64,000 nucleotides of DNA, from positions 7,812,001-7,876,000 of the forward strand of contig OZ005703.1 in NCBI GenBank assembly GCA_963930775.1, read 5' to 3'. Position 1 is the stretch's first letter. Each line of letters starts with the position of its first letter. Made by a program: the position numbers and the translations under genes. Positions 53,901 to 56,900 of the stretch are shown here, in pieces. The notes under the pieces were generated by a model. The model had not been told where the DNA came from, ran no database searches, and saw only the letters and a program-made list of their open reading frames with translations. Origin of the DNA: Cliona cf. orientalis (lineage: Eukaryota; Porifera; Demospongiae; Clionaida; Clionaidae).

Positions 53901-56900
53901 AGCATCCCAAGCGAAAGTGAGGGTGCTACTAAGGGCCTGAGGGTCTCTTAAAACCATAGAGACCATTGGATGAGGTCTCTAACTGATTTAGAATATTATA
54001 GCAACTGTAACCGTGGTAGTTGACCTGAGGACTAGGCTACTGTTGCACTGTGTATCTTTCTTTGCCCTCGGCTATATTTATAGGTCTCTGTGAAACTTGT
54101 AGGTCTCTATGAGAAATAGAGACCTCTGAGTGACCAATCAGATCACAATATTTGTTACAACGATTATTCTAAATAATAATATATGATTTCTTCCAGCTAC
54201 TATGTGGCGTACGCTGGAGATGTCAGTAGAGTTTCGTCACTAAATTTGAGAACTTTGGTTATGACGATTGTCATTGGAGATGGCCGTACAAGTGAAAATG
54301 GCAGCACTACCTTCACCAACCCTCCTCCCGAGGTTGGAGAAGACTACTACATCTTTATCAGGCTCTACTCTTCCTTAGACGTGAGTCGGGAGAGGGGAGG
54401 GAGGGGCTCGATTAAATGATAGAATTTTATTGTACTGTTCTTGATTGTATAGTGGATATTTGGTGAAGAATTTGGCAATTTTGGTGCATATAAAATTAAA
54501 TGGCCTATATTTCCAATTTTTGAAACTTCAAAATTTTAATAGTAGTTAACACGAGTATGCTGAACATTAAGGTCACCAAAATTGAAATTTACTGTCTTAA
54601 TTGGTTTTTGCTGACACCATTTCAATCTTGAGAGCCATTTCTGCCACATATCATTGCTCACCAGAGTTCCTCACTTTCTCAATATAATATCTTGATCATT
54701 ATTTTACCTACAGGATTCTGTGTTTGCTGACAGTTTGCTCACTGGAATACTGAGTAAGTAGATGTGCGTAAATTATAATAGTTTACCTTACAGAGCCCTC
54801 TCAGCCTTTATCACGAAATTAAGTACATAGGGGTTCCATGCATGCTAGCCAAGTTAACGATTCGCCACTCTATCCTTCACTTTGGCTACTATACATGTGG
54901 TCCCTGGATTTGAGTAGCCATTTTTTGCCATTGCTTCCTTTTTGAGATCACTATGAGATTTTTACGCTTCGGGAACTCCTTGTAGTACATGTACTGTACG
55001 TTGAAAAACCTAGGGATGAAGTAATATTATATTGCTATGTTACCCTCTCGTGTGTGGCACTATGATATGTACATGTATGTTATTGTGTCTGTGTGCAGGG
55101 ATCAACCCGCCGCTCGACCCTGCCGTCATCATAGCTCCTATTGCAGTGGTTGCTGTTGTTCTACTAATCATACTTGTTGTGCTGCTCGTCGTAGTCTTTG
55201 TGTACGTTCACAGTGCTTCTTTATAATGAACCACACCCACATATTGGTCATTCACGTAACTCTAAATTTTAGTTATGATGCGTTGATACGAGAAGGCATT
55301 TTCAGTTATTGTGATTATCACCCTCTCCCATCATTTCTTTCTCTCCCTCCCTCCCCCCCCCTCTCTCTCTCTGTCTCTCTCCCTCCCCCTCTCTCCCTCT
55401 CTCTCTCCCTCTCTCTCTCCCCCTCTCTCCCTCCCTCTAGCTTCACTCGTCCCCGTCGTGGCTACACTATAGCTGCCACAGGAGAGGACGGAGTTCATCG
55501 CAAGAAGAGGGGTGGGGCCCTTGAGCTACGGAGGACACGCCTCTTTTCTCCCGTCGTCAACGTACCAGTTCCTGACGTGTTTACATCAGCCGGTCAGCCG
55601 ACCACCCTTGTGTGTGAGGCCTCGGGCACACCAGCTCCTGAAGTGGTCTGGACCCAGAATAACGAGCCATTAGACAAGGAGCGCTTCATTCAATTAGCAG
55701 ATGCCTCCCTCTTTGTTAACGATACGGATCTCAAGGACGAGGGGGCGTACATCGTCACGGCAACCAATAGTGCTGGCACCGCAGAACAGATGGTTCGGGT
55801 CACTGTCATCCGACCTTCCCCTCCTGAACGTACGCCCCTAGTAATTAAGCTAAAATATCCGGAGATCTCAGTTCTTGAAATACATGTATTTAGATATGAA
55901 AAAAATATTTTTTTACTCAAATCTTATCCATAAAATTGTGCTATATTCACAGCTGATCCAGACCACCCTCCAATCCAAGTTGGAGAATTCACGGAAAAGA
56001 TCGCTCTACTGCGAGCCAATGATGATGAGGGTCTAGAGGACGAGTATTCGGTAAGGAGGGAGGGAGGGAGAGAGAAGCTATTACCGATAATATTATGTTT
56101 TGTATTTGTGTATTAGGAAGTGGAGCCAGACATCACGTTCACCTCGTATGCTGCCAAGATCAACATCAACAAGAACAAAAACCGCTATATTAATATCATT
56201 CCATGTAAGAATCACTCGCACACACGTACATGTACATGTATAGGGCATGTTAAACATGCCGACATTGAGCATGTGCACTACCGTGCTGTAGTAGGTTTTA
56301 GGAACCACAGAATTGAGAAGCATTGCATGGTGATCATGTGCATGTACATGTAGCATCACGTTGCATGCTGTATTTTACTGATTTTATACGATTGTCATGA
56401 TTGTGTGTATTACTGTGTTTGGCATAATAATATCGTGTACATATCCATAGCTCTCTACAAGTGCATAATATTACTATACATGTCCCCTACAAGTGTACAT
56501 TACATAAATATGTTATGTTTGGTGTATGTGTTTGTGCCTGAGCAAGGCTTGACAAAGGCGCAGGGCTTTACCATAAGAACAAGATAATAATTATAGCACT
56601 GGTATATATATTAATAGTAGCTACACACAGTATATAATGAGGAGCGTAGTTTATAAGTATTATGAGGTACATGTACAAGGTAATGGGTATGTTGTGTGTG
56701 TGAGTGTAGCCCTGAATAGTCTGTGGTGTCTTCAATTCCTGCTCCAGCTCGAAAATGGATGACCTATAAGTAATATTATTGGTATCACTGTACTCAGTTG
56801 GTGTGTATGTGTGCTGTGAACATGTCCTGTCAGCACTTCCTGTTTAAGGGTTGCAGTATCACATTACCAGTTCCTAATTAAGGCACATTAGCACTGGTCC

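Follow-up and report, generated by a model that had tools for sequence, protein, structure and literature searches.

The window analysed here (the whole stretch of 64,000 nucleotides of Cliona cf. orientalis DNA) contains on its forward strand a gene that, by its predicted domains, is a LAR-like receptor-type protein tyrosine phosphatase (RPTP) with tandem PTP domains. Its presumed N-terminal part spans 44982..54753, where reading frames and Pfam matches mark unjoined exons with a signal-peptide-like start (by eye) and weak Calx-beta, Ig and FN3 domains; the Calx-beta-like segments, at 47693-48331 within the presumed ectodomain, score below the Pfam cut-off. Then come the exon of a transmembrane (TM) helix (55099..55201), an exon whose first part is a basic juxtamembrane stretch (55441..55549) and whose remainder holds an I-set Ig domain (55550..55829) that we assign to the cytosolic side, the wedge exon N-terminal of D1 (55953..56050), and six further D1 exons within 56117..58808 (56117-56204, 57137-57213, 57411-57545, 57635-57754, 58112-58281 and 58523-58808). 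Where Ig and FN3 domains of LAR-like RPTPs are confined to the ectodomain, this gene has one I-set Ig after the TM exon. The second PTP domain, D2, lies 3' of D1 at 61840..63519, recognized by its frames and by PF00102 matches at 61840-62100 (E = 1.7e-17) and 63292-63519 (E = 1.1e-9); its exons too are unjoined, and its last piece reads DGISRTG, as against AGVGRTG in active domains, the residues preceding it being possibly intronic. Window positions 36154-43000 hold another RPTP gene (the second window gene), whose ectodomain is short and rich in Ser/Thr and in whose TM-to-wedge interval no cytosolic Ig is seen by eye.

The sequence-only reading of this DNA had placed a complete I-set Ig between a TM helix and an active D1, and the joined exons bear this out. 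AG and GT dinucleotides flank all three exons concerned (55099...55201, 55441...55829 and 55953...56050), and the spliced frame is open, with a phase 2 intron after the helix exon and a phase 1 intron after the Ig exon. Enumeration of nearby AG/GT sites extends the open frame from the helix to the end of D1 at about 58808, with six join solutions: the fifth of the six further D1 exons may start at 58112 or at 58124, and the sixth may stop at 58801, 58808 or 58812. The 488-residue product matches I-set at residues 72-156 (E = 4e-16) and Y_phosphatase (PF00102) at 214-450 (E = 3.2e-84). The run of seven exons after the Ig exon, beginning with the wedge, encodes wedge and D1 across GT-AG junctions in one open frame, and the D1 motifs HCxAGxGRTG, WPD, KNRY and the Q-loop (QTAPQY) are intact by eye. 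A query that begins with the wedge aligns to PTPRS D1-D2 chains from residue 4 onward, and the nearest solved chains to this D1, among PDB sequences only, are those of PTPRS and LAR.

The helix claimed for exon 55099-55201 has a Kyte-Doolittle hydropathy of 3.93 over 19 residues, and its splice sites are present. The next exon opens in frame with the predicted basic clusters (FTRPRRGY...HRKKRGG...RRTR), with 10 K/R and 3 D/E among the first 40 residues past the helix, before the complete Ig begins. As the earlier reading had stated, no further hydrophobic segment separates helix and D1: a hydropathy scan found no second TM segment downstream of the helix as far as YINASYLDG of D1, the best later 19-mer up to that point reaching 0.75. 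The D1 of an RPTP must be cytosolic to work. Since the helix is the sole hydrophobic stretch and D1 must lie in the cytosol, the Ig would be cytosolic as well if the exons are joined. The order TM-Ig-wedge-D1, with the Ig on the cytosolic side, is therefore supported by sequence evidence, given joined exons. Potential glycosylation sequons are weak proof of topology; the 28 cytosolic Igs examined in this genome (described below) have 0.57 of them per 100 residues, fewer than the 2.72 of 11 RPTP ectodomain Igs, but 13 of the 28, the window Ig among them, contain one.

The Ig exon alone matches Pfam I-set with E = 2.8e-17 over exon residues 38-122 (approximately 55553-55807), and the match spans positions 2-90 of the 90 in PF07679, that is, the full domain; at 63 bits, vs a cut-off of 23.7, it is not a chance match. 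The motifs VCEASG, DEGAY and ATNSAG are all found in it, as claimed, as is the Val at the site of the F-strand Cys. The B-strand Cys is kept, and on sequence evidence the canonical disulfide is lost. The proposed likeness to cytosolic Igs of the titin type fared less clearly: titin is among the best PDB sequence matches, but so are ROBO, contactin, neurofascin and the ectodomain Igs of LAR-type RPTPs. A single-sequence AlphaFold model of the Ig exon had a pLDDT of 40.6, too low to use. Within its own genome, the closest match, at 39% identity, lies at C15:8272294 and is an Ig that bears Cys.

Wnt matches at three places identify the genome as an animal's. Searching it with the window Ig exon yielded 113 matches (E up to 1), and 30 loci, the window included, were retrieved from these. 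At 17 of the 29 others a strong TM segment lies upstream and PTP motifs lie downstream of the Ig; the remaining 12 lack this TM-Ig-PTP order and have the appearance of ectodomain or other Igs. A further search with the exon of one of these paralogs (L018) produced 69 matches with E no higher than 0.01. Twelve more loci were then chosen for their nearness to PTP exons, three from the first search (L041-L043) and nine from the second (L044-L052), and all 12 of these purposely fetched loci have an Ig or its remnant before the wedge, with a TM segment in all except L042 (11/12). Thus an Ig or remnant occurs between helix and wedge at 29 further loci, 26 of them without visible Ig damage in the stretch read, which for L035 and L045 extends through the first Ig exon only. 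This count is a lower bound, since further matches (e.g. on C4) were left unfetched and the search scores only the best candidates; near-identical array copies that are possibly in part assembly duplicates bias it in the opposite direction. The predicted TM-Ig-PTP design thus recurs in sister genes, so the architecture is that of a family, not of a single gene.

One array (G000:C15:7886232-8057331) holds 15 Ig-wedge exons whose proteins are 83-100% identical to that of the L018 exon, itself counted; the exons at 8001069 and 8035453 (L036, L037) encode an identical protein stretch. The D1 of the L018 gene, like that of the window gene, finds its best PDB sequence matches in PTPRS and LAR, and its D2 (L040) reads HCSDTVTRSG and looks degenerate. 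Elsewhere, a C4 locus (L048:864-2351) has two tandem copies of its split cytosolic Ig together with the region behind it, and at L049, L051 and L052 the cytosolic Ig is damaged (by internal loss, a broken frame and a missing N-terminal half, respectively) and the wedge is still readable.

An Arg-rich open stretch between TM and Ig, which we read as a juxtamembrane exon, is present at six paralog loci, and an open reading with Arg/Lys runs lies in this interval at 10 of 11 other or rechecked loci; L038, missed by the Arg/Lys-run pattern, reads RRHK by eye. In-frame TM-juxtamembrane-Ig joins exist in all 25 loci tried of the 29 (L042, L045, L049 and L052 were left out), and for 23 of the 25 the top-scored join model, chosen from 2 to 53 candidates per locus, uses phases 2 and 1; the score favours Arg-rich joins, and several top models place the juxtamembrane start too late. 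The Ig shares a single open frame, read as one exon, with the wedge (which in the array begins RPIPIPEFGKYVAELH...) at 16 of the 17 loci from the first search, plus L041, L042 and L050; the RPIPIPEFGKYVAELH piece is identified as wedge because, starting at PIPI, it aligns to PTPRS. The C4 genes divide the Ig between two exons, and in L044, L046, L047 and L048 the wedge is found on the second of these; in L043 the wedge sits in a later exon.

The window gene, unlike most array paralogs, has Ig and wedge on separate exons, and this separation would suit an arrangement in which the Ig exon is an alternative one, or Ig-bearing transcripts omit the TM exon, so that the Ig is never membrane-adjacent inside the cell. 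We consider this highly improbable. Skipping 55441-55829 would break the frame, because the phase 2 end of the helix exon would meet an exon needing phase 1, and most array paralogs read through from Ig to wedge without leaving the open frame, so any transcript with that wedge carries the Ig.

The phases also bear on how the Ig may have arrived. Two RPTPs in which no such Ig is seen by eye (L003 and the second window gene) have, ahead of the wedge, an acceptor that fits phase 1; the window Ig is followed by a phase-1 intron, and the paralog Igs are preceded by one. This pattern could be explained by insertion of a phase 1-1 Ig at the juxtamembrane/wedge intron, with later intron losses that differed between the window gene and the paralogs. 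An Ig module flanked by phase-1 introns would, on this account, have entered the phase-1 intron between the juxtamembrane and wedge exons.

The paralog Igs have lost the canonical cysteines more completely than the window Ig. The B-strand Cys is absent in 27 of 27 (replaced by I, V, L or P) and the F-strand Cys in 26 of the 26 in which the site is readable (replaced by A, F, L or V). Five of these Igs (L042, L044, L046, L047 and L050) each have two non-canonical cysteines. Both canonical cysteines are present in 20 of 23 ectodomain or other Igs, read by eye in what is a convenience sample and not a random one; the exceptions are an ectodomain Ig of the window RPTP itself, at 48298-48624, without the B-strand Cys and two atypical, Cys-rich domains. 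Because the sequences are related, the counts of Cys loss are not independent events; the differing substitutes in the array, C4, L042, L043, L050 and L035 speak for several changes or long divergence. In the reducing cytosol a disulfide may simply not have been kept after insertion, as in titin-type Igs.

The Ig might be a passive, tolerated insertion (a shuffled exon whose harmless fold has no role of its own): three of the 29 paralog loci (L049, L051 and L052) combine a damaged Ig with a readable wedge, and other RPTPs of the genome manage without the Ig, namely, as judged by eye, L003 and the second window gene. Against this, the pooled pN/pS of the Ig part is 0.31 (45 pairs from 10 of 17 exon sequences, the pairs being non-independent); the deepest comparison, L041 vs nine other exons, gives 0.10-0.17, and single close pairs reach up to 0.69. 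By this measure the array Ig exons are under purifying selection, and the Ig is kept as protein there. In addition, the Ig is kept at 26 loci, and 13 columns are invariant across 12 aligned rows that include the window Ig. The measured selection makes a passive insertion less likely, and we regard it as quite improbable. Cys loss and selection in the paralogs are not simply transferable to the window Ig, which shares 32-37% identity with the paralog Igs, keeps one Cys, has a different exon and falls outside their clade.

The latter placement comes from an Ig tree that took in 14 of the 28 cytosolic Igs and 16 of the 23 others, in which 13 paralog Igs form one clade (support 99/98) and the window Ig lies outside it among other Igs. 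Forcing all 14 cytosolic Igs into one clade is, however, not rejected (AU p = 0.295). A D1 tree was built from 17 targets and the window; L043 gave no match, and removal of five rows shorter than 100 residues left 12, of which two were filled to less than half. Here the window D1 groups with genes that lack the Ig or whose Ig state is unknown (94/92, not starred), L004 and L005 having entered with that state unknown, and again a single clade is not rejected (AU p = 0.411). Judged from these trees, two gains of the cytosolic Ig, or one gain with losses, are both possible.

As to function, the most likely role of the Ig is putatively that of docking or spacing between the membrane and D1. It may be a folded, membrane-proximal module whose binding partner is a cytoskeletal or scaffold protein or, alternatively, the Ig copy of a neighbouring receptor, and such binding could set both the location of D1 and the exposure of the wedge and catalytic site. 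The main rival to docking or spacing is intramolecular control, with the Ig packing on the wedge or D1 and gating the active site or dimerisation with no outside partner. The contiguity of Ig and wedge, in one open frame at those 16 of 17 loci, would fit such a regulator, and one review describes wedge regions as regulating PTPRA dimerisation and activity (PMC7959691). On the other hand, the stretch between Ig and wedge differs in length and sequence across the paralogs, and the same review calls use of the wedge controversial, citing structures of LAR and PTPRM in which it plays no such part (PMC7959691). We rate direct intramolecular regulation as rather unlikely. Taken jointly, the reading that we favour, and think on balance probable, is of a LAR-like RPTP that carries an extra I-set Ig between the stop-transfer cluster and the D1 wedge, as an inserted module for docking or spacing.

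A broader and more tentative suggestion, which we would not yet expect to hold, is that a large radiation of phosphatase receptors in this animal lineage signals via a dedicated cytosolic Ig without its canonical disulfide. This Ig would have been acquired at one and the same phase-1 intron, perhaps on two occasions, and would act as an adaptor linking a variety of ectodomains to a single putative inner partner. The sister genes with the same order do suggest a receptor design of its own. If the favoured account is true, these receptors would exemplify the natural transfer of a domain from outside to inside the membrane, with adaptation to the cytosol and loss of its canonical cysteines, and they would add a new juxtamembrane control point to the RPTPs. 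The roughly 30 natural variants, three with damaged Igs, offer test material for the role of the Ig.

No RPTP with a cytosolic Ig is described in the titles or displayed text of the matches listed from the open-access literature searched, which was mostly without subscription papers and without bioRxiv preprints, and the Igs of human RPTPs are described, in the review cited above, as extracellular and as adhesion modules (PMC7959691). Sponge receptors that join an Ig to a signalling domain are known in the Ig-TIR receptors, but there the Ig is outside and the TIR inside (PMC6208332). An Ig inside the cell is reported for an echinoderm NLR, which is not a transmembrane phosphatase (PMC13133943). 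LAR and the other type IIa RPTPs (PTPRF, PTPRS, PTPRD) resemble the window gene in their Ig/FN3 ectodomain, one TM helix and tandem PTP domains, with PTPRS/LAR closest in D1, whereas the window gene has in addition the predicted cytosolic Ig and the weak Calx-beta match in its ectodomain. Titin, myosin-binding protein C, APEG-1 and telokin/MLCK share with it a cytosolic I-set Ig that needs no disulfide, and in titin and MLCK this type of Ig lies near a kinase domain; they are, however, soluble muscle or scaffold proteins and not transmembrane receptor phosphatases.
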